From Corynebacterium confusum (GTDB lineage: Bacteria; Actinomycetota; Actinomycetes; Mycobacteriales; Mycobacteriaceae): 64,000 bases of DNA. The notes beneath the pieces were generated by a model. That model saw nothing but the letters and a program-made list of their open reading frames with translations, had not been told where the DNA came from and did not search any database. This document shows, piece after piece, positions 37,139 to 46,093 of this stretch (positions are counted from its first letter, which is position 1; every line of letters begins with the position of its first letter). The position numbers and the translations under genes are program-made. The DNA is taken from assembly GCF_030408715.1 (NCBI RefSeq), contig NZ_CP047202.1:2213907-2277906 (forward strand). The letters are read 5' to 3'.

Positions 37139-39000
<1,862 letters not shown>

Positions 39001-39108: not shown

Positions 39109-39129
39109 CCTGAGTGCTGGCCACTCAAT
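39109..39129. promoter_or_regulatory. HAIR operator (HspR) upstream of dnaK
   Basis: CCTGAGT-N7-ACTCAAT matches CTTGAGT-N7-ACTCAAG in 12 of 14 arm positions. It covers the expected transcription start of the SigH-type promoter. Confidence 0.8.
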
Positions 39130-39162: not shown

Positions 39163-39312
39163 ACTCGACTCAACTTTTTATATCTTTTTCATTTTCCCAG
39201 CTCAGAGCATGTTGTCCACCTTCGGTTCCGCGAGCGTGTCCGAAAGTTACCTCCAATAAGTATCCGAAAGAAGATAGGCAAGAGGTTCAAAACTCGGCAG
39301 ACTGTAAAGCAC

Positions 39313-39374
39313 AGCAGCCGGGAACGGTCGCAACAGCAACGGGACTGGCTGGTTTTTCGACCACCCGGGCTGCT
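39313..39374 (+). other. Long hairpin in the 5' region of the 45-residue protein gene
   Basis: AGCAGCCGGG at 39313-39322 pairs with CCCGGGCTGCT at 39364-39374 with one bulge, and inside it GGTCG (39326-39330) pairs with CGACC (39358-39362). It ends 44 bases before the ATG at 39419 and would form a strong RNA stem if transcribed. Confidence 0.6.
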
Positions 39375-39418
39375 CCTATTCGAGAGATTCAGATTCTTCT
39401 ACACCGAAAGGAACTCTT

Positions 39419-39556
39419 ATGTTCGACTTCCTGACCGACCTCAGCTCCGCCATCGACTTCGAGCAGCTCATCAAGGGCATCTCCGACCTGATCGACGGCT
39501 CCTCCGAGGACTCCGCTTCTGAGGCAGCCGAGTCCACCGAAGCTGCTTCCAACTAA
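39419..39556 (+). CDS. 45-residue acidic amphipathic protein (PorA/PorH-like in size and character)
   Basis: ATG 39419 follows GAAAGGA at an ideal distance and the frame ends in TAA at 39554-39556. The product has no signal peptide and no Cys. Residues 2-26 (MFDFLTDLSSAIDFEQLIKG then ISDLIDG) place F, L and I at 3-4-residue steps, an amphipathic helix. Residues 28-45 are Ser/Glu/Ala-rich and net acidic. Corynebacterial porins PorA and PorH are 40-60 residues, lack signal peptides and are O-mycoloylated on Ser, so a cell-envelope role is plausible. No sequence match is claimed. It is flanked by hairpins and followed by two-component genes. Confidence 0.75.
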   Translation: MFDFLTDLSSAIDFEQLIKGISDLIDGSSEDSASEAAESTEAASN

Positions 39557-39597
39557 GCCTTAACCTCCACTAAATAGAGGCACGAGACTCTTTCACT

Positions 39598-39674
39598 GAA
39601 CTTCCCCCGCCGCCCGAGTTCGCGTCGCTCCCAAAAGAGCATCGCATGGGACAAAACTCGGACGGCGGGGGTTC
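39598..39674 (+). other. Large imperfect hairpin 3' of the 45-residue protein gene
   Basis: CCCCCGCCG (39604-39612) pairs with CGGCGGGGG (39663-39671) and CCGAGTT (39614-39620) with AACTCGG (39655-39661), separated by one C/A mismatch. The loop holds a second stem, GCG-GCTC with GAGC-CGC (39622-39645). No T-run follows, so it may be a factor-assisted terminator, an mRNA-stabilising end or a small RNA. The rest of 39557-39881 shows no gene. Confidence 0.65.
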
Positions 39675-39881
39675 CTCTATCTTCAGCCCGTGGCACCAAA
39701 CACTAGGCAGTAGGCACGAGCACCACAGCGCTAACGATGCCACCTGCCCCACCGCACCACGTCCGCCTTTCTGACTCCACCACTCCGGCTCCGCATAGCT
39801 CGGACGATCTCTTACGGACTAACGTTGAATACAGAACTTTCATCAAGACCGCACCTCGTTCCGCTCGCCAAAGGAGTCCGC

Positions 39882-41066
39882 TTGTCGGCACTACGACCCC
39901 TGCCTGCCCTGCGCAAGCTCCGATCCGTGATGACGCTGGAGCGCGCCGCCATCTTTGTGGGCGCCTTCTGTCTCATACTCAGCCTGCTCGGCGCCACCAT
40001 GGAGCCGCCGGAACTCCAGCTGGTCTCCGTGGTGTTGGGAATCGCGCTGACCTGCGCGACCGTGGGGGCCTACCGCTACCCGCTGGCCATGACGGTGCTC
40101 TTCCTCATCATCTGGATCACCGCCTCTATCGGCACTCACAACACCTACCTCAGCTGCGTTTTCATTGTTCCGGTCCTAGTCGCCATCGTGGCCTACCACG
40201 GGCGGGTGTGGCTCACTGCGGGCGCCGGGCTGACGATGTGGGTGGCCGGCCTTATCGATCCGGTCTCAGACCAAACCACCGTCAACCTCCCCACCGCCGC
40301 GACCTGGGGCATGTACGTCAGCCTGGGCATAGTCATCGGCAGCGCTTACGGGCACTCGGCGCGGCGCTACAAGTCAGCCATGGTGGAATGGGACCGCGAC
40401 GTCCGGAGGCGGCAAAACGATCTCGCCGAGATGCTCCATAACTCAGCCGTGTCCAGCATGACGGTCAACACCATGCAGCTGGAGGCCTTGAGCTTGGAAT
40501 ACGCCAAGGATCCCAAGCTAGCCGAGCGCCTCGACGAGCTCAGCGACTCCATGCGCTCGACGATGTCCGAGATCCGCGCTTTGACCAGCGTCCTGCGCAG
40601 CGCCAACGACGATCCCCAGTCCGTCCTCGGCATCGGCGACAAGACCGGCAAGAAGCCCACCACCTTCGCGAAGCTGCTGACCGAAGAAGCCAGCCGGCTC
40701 CAGAAGCTGAACAGGCATCCAAATACGACGATCATGCTGGACGATTTCGATCCCAGCTTCAGCCAGGACGTCCTCGACGCGGTCGCCGCAATCGTCAACG
40801 AGGCGTGCATCAACGCCGTGAAGTACTCCCCGCCGGGGGCAGAGATCAGCCTGACCGTCCGGCCCTACCTGGGATGGATTAGCCTGACAATTTCGAACCC
40901 GATCGCGACTTCCCGGGTGGCCGACAACTCCATGTCTTCGGGCATAGGCCAGGCCTCTATGCACCGGATCGCCACCACCATCGACGCCAAGCTCGCCAGC
41001 ACGGAAGACGACGGCAACTGGGAGGTCACGTTATCTCTTCCGCCACATAGCTATACACGTCGGTGA
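39882..41066 (+). CDS. Membrane sensor histidine kinase, DesK/NarX type
   Basis: A 394-residue protein from TTG 39882, chosen for AAAGGAG 5 bases upstream; TTG 39825 would add 19 residues without support. Five or six membrane helices lie between residues 22 and 156, with very short outside loops. The dimerisation/phosphoacceptor region reads RQNDLAEMLHNSAVSSMTVN with His186 the probable phosphorylation site, a diverged HisKA_3 box (usual form: R-E-I-H-D). The HATPase_c domain has NEACINAVKYS (N-box) and SSGIGQASMHRIA (G-box). It lies upstream of a NarL-type regulator, with a small secreted-peptide gene between them. Confidence 0.85.
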   Translation: MSALRPLPALRKLRSVMTLERAAIFVGAFCLILSLLGATMEPPELQLVSVVLGIALTCATVGAYRYPLAMTVLFLIIWITASIGTHNTYLSCVFIVPVLVAIVAYHGRVWLTAGAGLTMWVAGLIDPVSDQTTVNLPTAATWGMYVSLGIVIGSAYGHSARRYKSAMVEWDRDVRRRQNDLAEMLHNSAVSSMTVNTMQLEALSLEYAKDPKLAERLDELSDSMRSTMSEIRALTSVLRSANDDPQSVLGIGDKTGKKPTTFAKLLTEEASRLQKLNRHPNTTIMLDDFDPSFSQDVLDAVAAIVNEACINAVKYSPPGAEISLTVRPYLGWISLTISNPIATSRVADNSMSSGIGQASMHRIATTIDAKLASTEDDGNWEVTLSLPPHSYTRR

Positions 41067-41078
41067 TCTCACATAACC

Positions 41079-41108
41079 TTGGCGAATATCATTGAGCTAA
41101 GTTATGCT
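41079..41108 (+). promoter_or_regulatory. Promoter of the peptide-response regulator pair
   Basis: TTGGCG (41079-41084) and TATGCT (41103-41108) are 18 bases apart, close to the SigA consensus, 55 bp before the peptide ATG. The peptide and regulator can thus be made independently of the kinase gene. Confidence 0.6.
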
Positions 41109-41163
41109 AACGCTTGTTATCACCTCAACCACTCTCTAGAACTCTCCCTGGAAGGGACCCCTA

Positions 41164-41328
41164 ATGAACGCTCTCGCAGGTTTTCTCGCCCCGTTATTCC
41201 TCTCTTCGCAGCTGATCGGCGGCGCCCCCGCCCTTAGCTCCCAGAACGCACCGGTTACCGTCGCCCCGTACGAGTCCCTCGCCGAAAAGGCCTTCGGCTG
41301 CCCGTCCCCGTTTTGCCCGGGTCGGTAA
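41164..41328 (+). CDS. 54-residue putative secreted peptide with C-terminal Cys-Pro motif
   Basis: ATG 41164 follows GGAAGGGA by 6 bases; TAA is at 41326-41328. Residues 1-25 look like a signal peptide with a hydrophobic core (LAGFLAPLFL) and a likely cleavage after APA (about residue 24), although no basic residue precedes the core. The mature part, about 30 residues, ends FGCPSPFCPGR, where two Cys four residues apart could form a disulfide loop. It is encoded between a sensor kinase and its response regulator, and its end overlaps the regulator start by 16 bases. A signalling ligand is the obvious hypothesis; no family is recognised. Confidence 0.7.
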   Translation: MNALAGFLAPLFLSSQLIGGAPALSSQNAPVTVAPYESLAEKAFGCPSPFCPGR

Positions 41329-41978
41329 TTAACCTCCTGGTCGTCGACGACGACCCGCTGGTACTCGAAGCGCTAGGACACTACTTCGCTAGCGCAGACG
41401 ACATGAAGGTTGGCGCTACCGCCGAAAATGGAAAAGCCGCCCTTGCTCTGCTCGGGGAGCAAGATTTTGACGTCATCGTGGCAGATATTCACATGCCGGA
41501 AATGGACGGCACGACGCTGCTGCGCAAGGTCGGGGAGATGGACAATCCCCCGGTCTTTATCGCGATGACCGCGATGGACAATGACGACACCCTCCTGGAC
41601 GTCATGTCCCATAAGGCGGCCGCCTATATCCTGAAGAGCTCTAAGCCCACCTATATTTTGGAAACCGTGCGCGAAGCCGTAAAGGGCGGCACGGTGGTCA
41701 CGCCGCAGTCGCTGACCCGCCTGGTCGAGCACCTGCCGGAGCTCCAGACCACCACCATGCGCCCGACGGCCGCGCTGGATAGTTACGATATTCCGCCGGC
41801 ACAGCTACGGGTGCTGGAGCTGCTGTGTGAGGGCCAGTCGAACGCGGAGATCGCGGCATCGACGGGCTATGCCGACGGCACGATTAAGAAATACATCTCG
41901 TACCTGCTGGCCGAATTCCAGGCCAAGTCGCGCCTGGATCTGGCCATCAAGGCGCTCAAAGCCGGCTACGGCCAGTAA
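41313..41978 (+). CDS. NarL/LuxR-family response regulator
   Basis: A 221-residue protein. The receiver domain (5-125) has acidic pocket VVDDDP, phospho-acceptor Asp58 in IVADIHMPEMDG, the conserved Thr in IAMTAMD and Lys in YILKSS. The C-terminal LuxR-type helix-turn-helix (about 158-218) reads LRVLELLCEGQSNAEIAAST and GTIKKYISYLLAEF. The start is TTG 41313 inside the peptide gene with no Shine-Dalgarno of its own, so translation probably depends on the peptide. It is the likely partner of the kinase at 39882-41066. Confidence 0.88.
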   Translation: MPGSVINLLVVDDDPLVLEALGHYFASADDMKVGATAENGKAALALLGEQDFDVIVADIHMPEMDGTTLLRKVGEMDNPPVFIAMTAMDNDDTLLDVMSHKAAAYILKSSKPTYILETVREAVKGGTVVTPQSLTRLVEHLPELQTTTMRPTAALDSYDIPPAQLRVLELLCEGQSNAEIAASTGYADGTIKKYISYLLAEFQAKSRLDLAIKALKAGYGQ

Positions 41979-42628: not shown

Positions 42629-45600
42629 ATGACTTCTCCTGCCAACACCCGTTTGCCCGAATCCGACGACGTCGAAGCCATCGTCGAATCCGCCGTCCGC
42701 CAGGCCCGCACCTGGCTCGCCGCTAGCGCTAACGAGAAAGACCAGGCCACCGAGCAGCTCGCGGACCTGCTGCGCGACACCGACGGCGTTAAGTTCACCA
42801 TGGACTTCGTCGACCGCGTTATGCGCCCGGAAGACGACAAGGTTGCAGCTCACGCGCTGAAGAAGATTAACGAAAACTTTGATCCGGCCTTCCTGGGCAA
42901 GATCAACGCCTCCCTGATCGGCTTGGGCGGTTTCTTCGGACCGATCCTGCCGAACCTCGTGATGCCGCTAGCCCGCATGCGCATGCGTCAGATGGTCGGC
43001 CACTTGGTCGTCGACGCTGAGTCCGACGTCCTGAACAAGACCCTGGACAAGGCCGCCGAGTCCGGCGAGCAGCTCAACCTGAACCTGCTGGGCGAGGCCG
43101 TCCTCGGCGAGGACGAGGCCCGCTCCCGCACCGAGCGCACCCTGGCGCTTATCCGCAACCCGCGCGTGACCTACGTGTCCGTGAAGGCCTCTTCCATCGT
43201 GGCCCAGCTCAACCCGTGGGACATCGACGGCTCCGTCGAGCGCCTCAAGGAGCGCCTGCGCCCCCTCTACGAGGAGGCCGCCAAGCGCAGCCCGAATGTC
43301 TTCATCAACCTGGACATGGAGGAGTACCACGACCTCCACCTGACCATCCGCCTGTTCAAGGAACTGCTCAGCGAGCCGGAGTTCAAGGAGCTGGAAGCCG
43401 GCATCGTCCTGCAGGCCTACCTGCCGGATACCTTCGCCGCCCTGCAGGAGCTGGCCGAGTTCGCCAAGCAGCGCGTGGCCGAAGGCGGCGCCAAAATTAA
43501 GATCCGCCTGGTCAAGGGCGCCAACCTGTCCATGGAGCACGTCCAGGGCGAGGTCCACGGCTGGCCGGTCGCCCCTTACATCACCAAGCCGGAGGTCGAC
43601 GCCAACTACTTCCGCCTGCTGGACTACATCCTGCGCGATGAGTTCGCCGACTCCGTGCGGATTGGCGTGGCCACCCACAACCTCTACACCGCCGCCCTGG
43701 CCGCGGAGCTGGGCAAGAAGCGCGGCGTCATGAACATGATGGACTCCGAGATGCTGCAGGGCATGTCCCCGGCCCAGCAGGAGGCCGTCCGCAAGGTCTT
43801 CGGCGGTCGCCAGATCCTCTACACCCCTGTCGTCCACATGGAAGACTTCGACGTCGCCGTGTCCTACCTGGTCCGCCGCCTAGAGGAGAACTCCGCCCCG
43901 CAGAACTTCCTCTACGCCCTGTTCGCCCCGGACGAAGCCCGCAGCGATCACCTGACCCCGCTGCAGGATCAGGAAGCCCGCTTCCGCCGCGCCGTGAAAG
44001 ACCGCTGGGACACCTTCGCCGGCGCCCGCCGCCAGCAGGACCGCAACGCGGAGGAAGGCCAGGGCCGCCAGGCCCCGGTCACTGGCCGCTTTGTCAACGA
44101 GCCGGACACCGACCCGGCGCTGCAGGCCAACCGCGAGTGGGCCCTGAAGTGGCTGGACACCGACCCGGGCGAGCACACCGTTACCCAGGTCACCGACCCG
44201 GCCGAGGTGGAAACCGCCGTGGCCAAGGCAAAGACCCTGGCCGAGGACTGGGGCTCCAAGACTGGCCACGAGCGCGCTGAGGTCCTGGATACCATCGGCG
44301 ACCACCTGGCGGATTACCGCGGCCGCCTGGTCAGCGTCATGGCCCACGAGGCCAACAAGACCGTGACGCAGTCCGACCCGGAGGTCTCCGAGGCCATCGA
44401 CTTCGCCACCTACTACGCGCACTCCGCGCGCCTGCTGGACGAGGCCCGGTCGAAGTTCACCCCGAACCGCGTGACCGTGGTGACCCCGCCGTGGAACTTC
44501 CCCGTGGCCATCCCGGTCGGCGGCGTGCTGTCCTCCCTGGCGGCCGGCTCCACCGTCATCATCAAGCCGGCCCCGCAGGTCGTCCACTGTGCCCAGGTAG
44601 CCGTGGAGGCCATCCACGCCGGCCTGAAGGAGCACGGCCTGGACACCGACCTGGTTCAGCTGGTCTACACCGACGAGAGCGAAGCCGGCAAGACGCTCAT
44701 CTCCCACGCAGACGTCGACGCCGTCATCCTGACCGGCGCTTCCGACACCGGCGCGCTCTTCCGCTCCTGGCGCCCGGAGATGAACCTGATGGCTGAGACC
44801 TCCGGCAAGAACGCGCTGATCATCACCCCGGCCGCCGATCCGGACCTGGCCATCCAGGACCTGTACCTGTCCGCCTTCGGCCACTCTGGCCAGAAGTGCT
44901 CCGCCGCCTCCCTGGTCATCTTCGTCGGCGCCGCCGGCACCTCGGAGCGCCTGCGCAACCAGCTGCTGGACTCCGTGCGCACGCTCATCCCGGGCCCGGG
45001 CTACGAGGTCAAGACCACCATGAACGGCCTGGCCGAGCCGCCGAGTGAGAAGCTCTACCGCGGCCTGACCCAGCTGGAGCCGGGCGAGAAGTGGCTCATC
45101 AAGCCGGAGAAGCTCAACGAGGAGGGAACCCTGTGGTCCCCGGGTATCCGCGACGGCGTCCAGCCGGGCTCCTGGTACCACCTCAACGAGTGCTTCGGCC
45201 CGGTGCTGGGCATCATGCACGCCGAGACCCTGGAGGAGGCCATCGAGTGGCAGAACTCCACCGGCTACGGTCTGACCGGCGGCATCCACTCCCTGGATGA
45301 CGAGGAGATTGACTACTGGATCGACCACGTCGAGGTCGGCAACGCCTACGTCAACCGCGGCATCACCGGCGCTATCGTCCAGCGCCAGTCCTTTGGCGGC
45401 TGGAAGAAATCCGTCATGGGCCCGGGCGCCAAGGCCGGCGGCCCGAACTACGTGCCGCAGATGGGCACCTGGGAGGACGGCGAGCTGCGCGCCCGCGACG
45501 TGGACATCAAGGCCAACATCGCCGGCGAGCTGCGCCAGTGGACCGACCGCCTGGACTCCGTGCTGGACGAAGGCGACGCCTCCTGGCTGTGGCGCGCCGC

Positions 45601-46093
45601 GGAGCTGGACCAGCTAGCCTGGCAGGAAGAGTTCGGTCGCAACCACGACCGCACGGCTCTGATCTCGGAGGCCAATATCTTCCGCTACCGCCCGCTGCTG
45701 TCGGCCCTGTCTGTCCGCGTTGGCGAGGGCTACAAGGTCCGCGACGTCGCCCGCCAGCTGCTGGCCACCGCCATCACCGGCACCCCGATCGACATCTCGG
45801 CCCCGGCGAACATCGCCGCGGACCTGCGCGACATGGGCTTCCGCGCCCGCACCGCCAGCACTGAGGAGTTCGCCAACGAGGTCGCCGAGATGTCCTCGGC
45901 CCGCATCCGCGCCCTCGGCGCGGTGGAGCAGCCGGTCCAGGAGGCCGCGGTCAAGTCGAACTCGGTCGTCCTCGACCAGCCGGTCCTGGCCGATGGCCGC
46001 CGCGAGCTGCTGCCGTACCTGCTGGAGCAAGCCATCTCCGTGACCATGCACCGCTTCGGCATCATCCGCGATACCGGCGATATCCGCCGCTAG
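42629..46093 (+). CDS. putA: Bifunctional proline dehydrogenase / 1-pyrroline-5-carboxylate dehydrogenase
   Basis: An 1154-residue fusion that oxidises proline to glutamate in two steps. The FAD-linked PRODH barrel (about 80-450) has RLVKGANLSMEH, MNMMDSEMLQGM and a VRRLEENSAPQNF-type end. The NAD-linked P5C dehydrogenase (about 520-1000) has TPPWNFPVAIPVGG, AETSGKNA and catalytic Cys in GHSGQKCSAASL. The E. coli-type N-terminal ribbon-helix-helix DNA-binding domain is absent, so control must come from elsewhere, perhaps the long leader. A ~150-residue C-terminal extension follows. Confidence 0.95.
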   Translation: MTSPANTRLPESDDVEAIVESAVRQARTWLAASANEKDQATEQLADLLRDTDGVKFTMDFVDRVMRPEDDKVAAHALKKINENFDPAFLGKINASLIGLGGFFGPILPNLVMPLARMRMRQMVGHLVVDAESDVLNKTLDKAAESGEQLNLNLLGEAVLGEDEARSRTERTLALIRNPRVTYVSVKASSIVAQLNPWDIDGSVERLKERLRPLYEEAAKRSPNVFINLDMEEYHDLHLTIRLFKELLSEPEFKELEAGIVLQAYLPDTFAALQELAEFAKQRVAEGGAKIKIRLVKGANLSMEHVQGEVHGWPVAPYITKPEVDANYFRLLDYILRDEFADSVRIGVATHNLYTAALAAELGKKRGVMNMMDSEMLQGMSPAQQEAVRKVFGGRQILYTPVVHMEDFDVAVSYLVRRLEENSAPQNFLYALFAPDEARSDHLTPLQDQEARFRRAVKDRWDTFAGARRQQDRNAEEGQGRQAPVTGRFVNEPDTDPALQANREWALKWLDTDPGEHTVTQVTDPAEVETAVAKAKTLAEDWGSKTGHERAEVLDTIGDHLADYRGRLVSVMAHEANKTVTQSDPEVSEAIDFATYYAHSARLLDEARSKFTPNRVTVVTPPWNFPVAIPVGGVLSSLAAGSTVIIKPAPQVVHCAQVAVEAIHAGLKEHGLDTDLVQLVYTDESEAGKTLISHADVDAVILTGASDTGALFRSWRPEMNLMAETSGKNALIITPAADPDLAIQDLYLSAFGHSGQKCSAASLVIFVGAAGTSERLRNQLLDSVRTLIPGPGYEVKTTMNGLAEPPSEKLYRGLTQLEPGEKWLIKPEKLNEEGTLWSPGIRDGVQPGSWYHLNECFGPVLGIMHAETLEEAIEWQNSTGYGLTGGIHSLDDEEIDYWIDHVEVGNAYVNRGITGAIVQRQSFGGWKKSVMGPGAKAGGPNYVPQMGTWEDGELRARDVDIKANIAGELRQWTDRLDSVLDEGDASWLWRAAELDQLAWQEEFGRNHDRTALISEANIFRYRPLLSALSVRVGEGYKVRDVARQLLATAITGTPIDISAPANIAADLRDMGFRARTASTEEFANEVAEMSSARIRALGAVEQPVQEAAVKSNSVVLDQPVLADGRRELLPYLLEQAISVTMHRFGIIRDTGDIRR

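Follow-up and report, generated by a model that had tools for sequence, protein, structure and literature searches.

Does a two-component system of Corynebacterium confusum carry the gene for the peptide that it senses? The question is raised by a stretch of 64,000 nucleotides (nt) of this genome (NZ_CP047202.1, positions 2,213,907 to 2,277,906), called the window here, in which a short open reading frame (ORF) for 54 amino acids (aa) lies between the genes for a sensor kinase and a response regulator. We conclude that the three genes belong to a real and conserved family of peptide-linked two-component systems, which in our searches turned up in Corynebacterium alone. The basis for this is observed, namely gene reality, conservation, gene order, co-occurrence and a shared motif. 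From the sequences we think it probable that the peptide is exported by the Sec pathway and acts on the neighbouring polytopic HisKA_3 kinase, most likely as a ligand or pheromone.

The peptide gene and its locus

The original prediction was of four genes in a row, and all four are found, on one strand. The features that we discuss are as follows.

39239..39270, plus strand: direct repeat TCCGAAAG-N16-TCCGAAAG 5' of the 45-aa gene, conserved in the upstream alignment, a candidate regulator site
39419..39556, plus strand: gene for a 45-aa acidic amphipathic protein, the candidate output gene, with Shine-Dalgarno (SD) sequence AAAGGAA
39882..41066, plus strand: polytopic HisKA_3 sensor histidine kinase of 394 aa (start revised), with Pfam HisKA_3 match, SD sequence, and ATG in relatives
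41103..41108, plus strand: -10-like hexamer TATGCT in the kinase-peptide gap, from the alignment of 21 gaps, a putative promoter for peptide and regulator
41164..41328, plus strand: 54-aa exported-peptide candidate with conserved C-terminal FGCPSPFC, called on purifying selection, motif and co-occurrence with the kinase
41299..41316, plus strand: C-terminal two-Cys loop of the peptide, C46-PSPF-C51, both Cys invariant in the clade
41313..41978, plus strand: NarL-type response regulator with receiver and GerE/LuxR helix-turn-helix (Pfam Response_reg and GerE)

The peptide gene has a ratio of nonsynonymous to synonymous changes (pN/pS) of 0.32 over 19 distinct sequences of the window's clade, with constraint in both halves (0.28 and 0.36). 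For the nine peptide genes of equal length the ratio is 0.22 in frame as against 1.37 and 2.08 in two shifted frames. Fifteen positions are invariant among nine representatives, including FGCP-x-P-x-C near the C-terminus, and for the clade the C-terminal motif can be written FGCP[SA]P[FW]C. In the 21 aligned gaps there is an AAGG-type ribosome site 5' of the peptide ATG and a recurring -10-like hexamer, TAAGCT or TACACT in most relatives, and the TATGCT of the window is a possible promoter of the peptide and regulator genes. A chance ORF is ruled out by the codon pattern together with the genus controls given below, and on this pattern of substitution we take the gene to be real, conserved and kept in frame by selection.

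The peptide also goes with its kinase. In our genus sample of 242 Corynebacterium genomes the kinase ortholog is present in 21 (E<=5e-116, the next 16 matches being at 5e-56 or weaker) and the peptide in the identical 21 (E<=3.1e-23); one further peptide match, at 0.008, is in G171, which has no kinase match. The 45-aa gene is again in the same 21 genomes (E<=6.8e-14, next match 6e-4). That the small frames should be missing from relatives with the kinase-regulator pair had been named beforehand as one outcome that would refute the original prediction, and this sequence part of the test did not refute it. Named sources of kinase relatives are C. tuberculostearicum, C. accolens, C. kefirresidentii and C. 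rhinophilum, and two loci whose kinases are 92-93% identical belong to Corynebacterium sp. HMSC04H06 and a metagenome-assembled genome.

The kinase, described in the original prediction as polytopic and of DesK/NarX type, has a HisKA_3 match and a multi-helix sensor part; its start has to be moved. The most likely start is TTG 39882, because it is preceded by AAAGGAG, close relatives L001 and L034 have ATG at this position, and the revised 394-aa protein matches a database protein of equal length (P0002). PF07730 HisKA_3 matches at E 4e-6, above the curated cut-off, and HATPase_c at E 0.0018, below its cut-off, and we place the protein in the HisKA_3 class, whose members have a DHp domain of this type with its H-box and also an HATPase domain. 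A tentative model (mean predicted local distance difference test score 62.6) has five helices and then a sixth that continues into the DHp helix, and by a strict hydropathy rule the window kinase has four segments, the range over 75 triad kinases being 3-7. Structure search with this low-confidence model returned histidine kinases in general, with query TM-scores up to 0.28. The regulator (PF00072 Response_reg, E 3.4e-23; PF00196 GerE, E 1.3e-7) is of NarL/LuxR type, and its start, a TTG at 41313, does lie inside the peptide gene as first claimed, with an overlap of 16 nt that recurs in relatives, for instance in L008, there with ATG.

The cassette runs in the order 45-aa gene, kinase, peptide, regulator, and is flanked by dnaK (HSP70), which starts at 39000 on the minus strand, and by putA (42629-46093), whose product is proline dehydrogenase plus aldehyde dehydrogenase. 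Two clade genomes have a large extra ORF with no Pfam match at 1e-5. In one it encodes 677 aa and lies between regulator and putA (L042:6775-8808); in the other it encodes 750 aa and separates the 45-aa gene from the kinase (L040:1657-3909).

The family across Corynebacterium

Where the kinase is more distant (16 loci, 23-33% identity) the regulator is likewise preceded by a small ORF in every case, and 15 of these ORFs have the two terminal Cys, L107 having Ser for the second. Restriction of the system to the window clade is ruled out by these peptides, and because of them we searched the genus with the regulator. This gave 140 loci in 126 of the 242 genomes (E<=1e-30), and the upstream DNA of all 140 was examined for an ORF of 28-110 aa with a hydrophobic 11-mer in its first 45 residues and the ending C-x(3-10)-C-x(0-10)-stop, with its end between -140 and +45 relative to the regulator. 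Such an ORF is present at 110 of the 140 loci, in 104 genomes, with observed ends from -124 to +9, and the link of peptide to regulator that had been proposed for one locus extends to these loci across the genus.

As the rule was set after the first cases had been seen, the controls matter. Shuffled sequences conform in 32 of 2800 cases (3 with an aromatic residue before the last Cys), the reverse complement in 1 of 138 (none with an aromatic), and windows at five other offsets in 6 of 686 (again none), giving a background of about 1%. In the 110 motif peptides, by comparison, W, F or Y precedes the last Cys in 108, and it is W in 101. The loop between the two Cys is of 8 residues in 77 peptides, 4 in 21, 7 in nine, 5 in two and 10 in one, and there are 64 distinct loops. 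In most of them F or L stands two positions ahead of the first Cys and W directly ahead of the last. Exactly two Cys lie within the last 35 residues in 109, and K or R is among the first eight residues in 80. The weak members are L195 and L297, which lack the aromatic residue, and L295, which is doubtful.

Six genomes have two qualifying loci with loops that differ within the genome, one of the second loci being the doubtful L295 and another L297. Variant or degenerate peptides are found at L107, L160, L215 and L294, four of the loci that fall outside the rule, and inspection of the rest of that set one by one revealed no such peptide. L294 has the C-terminus CQKFPALPIC, similar to the L297 loop, and the two (in G094 and G097) share C-x(8)-C loops with FPALPIC or FPSLPIC ends and no aromatic, possibly a second loop type. 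In G202 the regulators L215 and L218 are about 3.2 kb apart, and the L215 peptide, truncated and with Cys lost, suggests decay after duplication. The divergent triad L096 lies near genes for a ClpB-like protein (Clp_N, AAA), a MerR-family protein and DnaJ, a chaperone neighbourhood like that of the window clade.

The kinases of the family have a feature of their own. An H-box is readable at 104 of the 110 loci, the six with none recognised including L295, and His is followed by D in 67 kinases, by N in 23, by G in 13 and by R in one; the window kinase has His-Asn rather than His-Asp. HisKA_3 kinases have a DxxxQ/H motif behind the His that accepts the phosphate, and for the kinases reported in one source a substituted phosphatase residue means that phosphatase activity is lost and pathway activity goes up (PMC11502775). 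None of the 104 readable triad kinases has Q or H there, position H+5 being S, A, T, K, G or R, and we count the motif as a usual, not a defining, feature of the class. In this genome's other eight HisKA_3 kinases the box is readable in three and has Q in all three; no ORF conforming to the peptide rule lies within about 1.5 kb downstream of the kinase box at those eight loci. The absence of the phosphatase residue suggests that output in the triad family may be governed by control of the kinase alone.

Outside the genus we used a profile of 33 regulators (E<=1e-55), with 12 first-look candidates scored per genome, so that divergent triads elsewhere may be missed. Matches were found in 10 of 251 genomes of the family (31 genera sampled), every one a Corynebacterium, and in four of 246 genomes of the class, one of them the window's own; the other three are borderline (1e-56 to 1e-57), and no two-Cys ORF was seen upstream of them. 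A Pfam and NCBIfam scan of 61 peptides found no family covering them and none matched by more than three members at E<=0.1, the scattered weak matches including several signal-peptide models. A profile of the 61 against 5.8 billion predicted proteins gave nine proteins at E<=0.01, a low number that may also reflect that search's need for shared exact words. No description of comparable peptide sensing in Corynebacterium was found in the open-licence PubMed Central literature, as judged by title and abstract, and a peptide-controlled sensing family in this genus looks to be undescribed.

Proposed roles for the peptide

We suggest that kinase, peptide and regulator would form a single signalling unit. 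The 54-aa product would be exported by Sec and cleaved after its signal-peptide-like N-terminus to leave a mature C-terminal part of about 25-30 residues, with a disulfide between its two Cys. Outside the membrane this would be an autoinducing or autocrine ligand for the kinase, with the multi-helix sensor part as its target. Phosphate would then pass from the kinase to the NarL-type regulator, at Asp58 by motif, and the regulator would use the repeat at 39239-39270 to turn on the envelope-type gene for 45 aa, and possibly would turn on its own peptide gene as well.

Covariation gives mild support for a ligand role. With 45 representatives (from 79 of 98 kinases that could be parsed, regulators at least 85% identical being dropped) the C-terminal 26 residues of the peptide have a partial r of 0.33 with the sensor half of the kinase once regulator distances are removed. 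The signal part of the peptide gives 0.05, no link, and the catalytic half of the kinase adds nothing when the sensor is accounted for (-0.04), while the regulator retains 0.15 given the sensor. With 75 of the 98 kinases, likewise reduced to 45 representatives, the value had been 0.49, and we rely on the lower one. The sliding profile picks out no single ligand-facing segment.

Several observations count against the peptide as ligand. The covariation extends beyond the sensor half, as a stretch in the catalytic domain scores 0.36-0.38 in the sliding scan, and the partial Mantel test is liberal when the data follow a tree. The window peptide has no K or R at its N-terminus, which makes its signal sequence atypical, and no processing or transport gene was seen in the cassette. 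The 21 genomes appear, as judged without a tree, to be one related group, so that their agreement in all three genes does not count as 21 separate events. At 30 of the 140 regulator loci the peptide rule fails, and at L167, L171, L173 and L179 a kinase with a triad-type H-box directly abuts the regulator, leaving no room for a peptide, so this regulator subfamily can work without one. These four would also be a useful outgroup on peptide gain or loss.

An alternative that we consider unlikely, and still the strongest of those below, has the peptide staying at the outer face of the membrane as a small accessory subunit, which would hold the kinase back or switch it on in the manner of MgrB with PhoQ and would perhaps report thiol redox state or envelope stress. 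The two conserved Cys near an aromatic residue would suit such a role, and so would the hydrophobic segment of the window clade, which lacks a classical signal-peptide start. The chaperone neighbourhood, with the clade locus beside dnaK and L096 between the ClpB-like and DnaJ/MerR-like genes, also suits stress sensing. However many members have, by eye, basic residues at the start, a hydrophobic stretch and a site resembling A-x-A, and 64 distinct loops are more variation than a redox switch needs.

It is improbable that the small protein is a controlled product, for instance an antimicrobial or envelope peptide, of a kinase that senses something else. Small secreted two-Cys peptides can indeed be antimicrobial, and the peptide gene is preceded by a -10-like element and a ribosome site of its own; the cassette has no immunity or transport gene, however, the position beside the regulator is fixed in 110 loci, and there is the mild covariation with the kinase sensor. 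Very improbable is a functionless peptide whose ORF is a cis-acting leader, with Trp and Cys codons next to the stop tuning regulator translation by attenuation or coupling. The codons are placed as in the Cys leader peptides of mycobacteria, and the end of the ORF is close to the regulator (-124 to +9), but spacing to the regulator varies by more than 130 nt, hydrophobic N-termini are general and amino acids are constrained in both halves (pN/pS 0.28, 0.36).

Taking the exported ligand as the best reading, we also consider a broader one, to which we give somewhat less than an even chance. The genus would have a peptide language, with more than 100 sampled loci each holding a private ligand-receptor pair. 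The ligand would be exported by Sec and have a disulfide loop at its C-terminus, with Trp-Cys as the last two residues of the loop; the receptor would be a multi-helix kinase without the usual phosphatase residue, output being set by peptide binding alone. In the C. accolens/C. tuberculostearicum group that output would be a dedicated small envelope protein.

Output, known systems and meaning

The 45-aa gene had been linked with the system as a target, and this needs to be narrowed. It adjoins the kinase in 20 of the 21 genomes (about 2.7 kb off in G105). It is a clade-specific neighbour and not a general part of the system: that possibility is ruled out, as the gene is confined to the 21 genomes and no gene like it was seen beside the 16 distant loci, in a search with an SD filter that can miss weak sites and did not pick up the peptide of the window. 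Its constraint is weaker than the peptide's (pN/pS 0.53, 15 distinct sequences). Related proteins are of 58-75 aa, and the window protein lacks 18 residues that its two closest relatives (63 aa) have, apparently through an in-frame loss. Apart from a weak sub-cutoff Phasin_2 match it has no Pfam match, and the 54-aa ORF has none.

The direct repeat lies about 150 nt before the 45-aa start codon in the window, and its consensus 5' of this gene is TCCRAAAG-N15/16-TCCRAAAG. The exact form is in 15 of 20 upstream regions. In the 16 clade genomes searched the exact pair is upstream of the gene in 11, two of which carry one more copy at another place, differing in its spacer, and it is absent from the other five, a more divergent subgroup. 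The same pattern read backward, as a control, occurs once each in four of the 16. A scan of the window for half-repeats with two mismatches found five against 4.97 expected, no excess; the paired repeat is rarer than this without being unique. Its position and conservation lead us to infer that the regulator binds the repeat, and for this clade we regard the 45-aa gene as the likely output, with which a conserved upstream repeat fits. Between dnaK and the 45-aa gene, at 39109-39129, is CCTGAGT-N7-ACTCAAT, which we take to resemble the HspR-associated inverted repeat (HAIR) operator, and heat-shock control might reach the 45-aa gene through this HAIR-like site.

PorA and PorH are very small channel proteins of the cell wall, predicted to be amphipathic helices and made with no precursor, whose genes are beside a chaperone gene, located between groEL2 and the polyphosphate kinase gene (PMC5944148). 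The 45-aa protein is like them in tiny size, amphipathicity and a chaperone-gene neighbour, a likeness known here by description and not by homology, and its gene differs from theirs in location, adjoining dnaK.

With regard to known peptide systems, among the nearest is ComQXPA of Bacillus, in which ComA is the regulator, ComP is a polytopic HisKA_3 kinase and the pheromone ComX has a key Trp near its C-terminus. The window locus likewise has a peptide gene beside a HisKA_3 kinase and a NarL-type regulator, and by its layout it would work like ComQXPA. However the Corynebacterium peptide lies between kinase and regulator, a gene order different from that of ComQXPA, and has a Sec-type hydrophobic start and two Cys. 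No comQ isoprenyl-transferase gene was seen between dnaK and putA in ORF maps of the window and 10 relatives, and because no ComQ-like gene is seen there and the peptide type and gene order differ we do not place the system in ComQXPA. There is some likeness to Agr also, as a Cys-containing peptide goes with a polytopic kinase, the AgrD peptide having one thiolactone Cys. In contrast the peptides here have two conserved Cys, the kinase is HisKA_3 and the regulator is GerE-type and not LytTR, for which last reason the system is not Agr; no AgrB-like gene was seen in the cassette in ORF maps, with no AgrB profile used.

The original prediction took LytTR regulators as usual for peptide sensors and a NarL-type version as novel, and in this it overlooked ComP-ComA of ComQXPA, which belong to the NarL family (PMC8895600). 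NarL-type peptide sensing itself is thus already known, from ComPA, and it is the Corynebacterium family that appears new. LuxR-type regulators are common to this triad's genus and the C. glutamicum systems, where HrrSA, CgtSR8 (ChrSA), CgtSR6, CgtSR7 and CgtSR10 are listed in a 2012 review of corynebacterial two-component systems (PMC3353115). The words peptide, pheromone and quorum are absent from the main text of that review, and the only systems covered by its species table are those that C. glutamicum has (PMC3353115).

If the peptides are ligands, there would be genus-wide peptide signalling in Corynebacterium, reaching common human commensals such as C. accolens, C. tuberculostearicum and C. 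kefirresidentii. As the 64 loops can be read from the genomes, receptor specificity, crosstalk between species and output would be testable with synthetic peptides.

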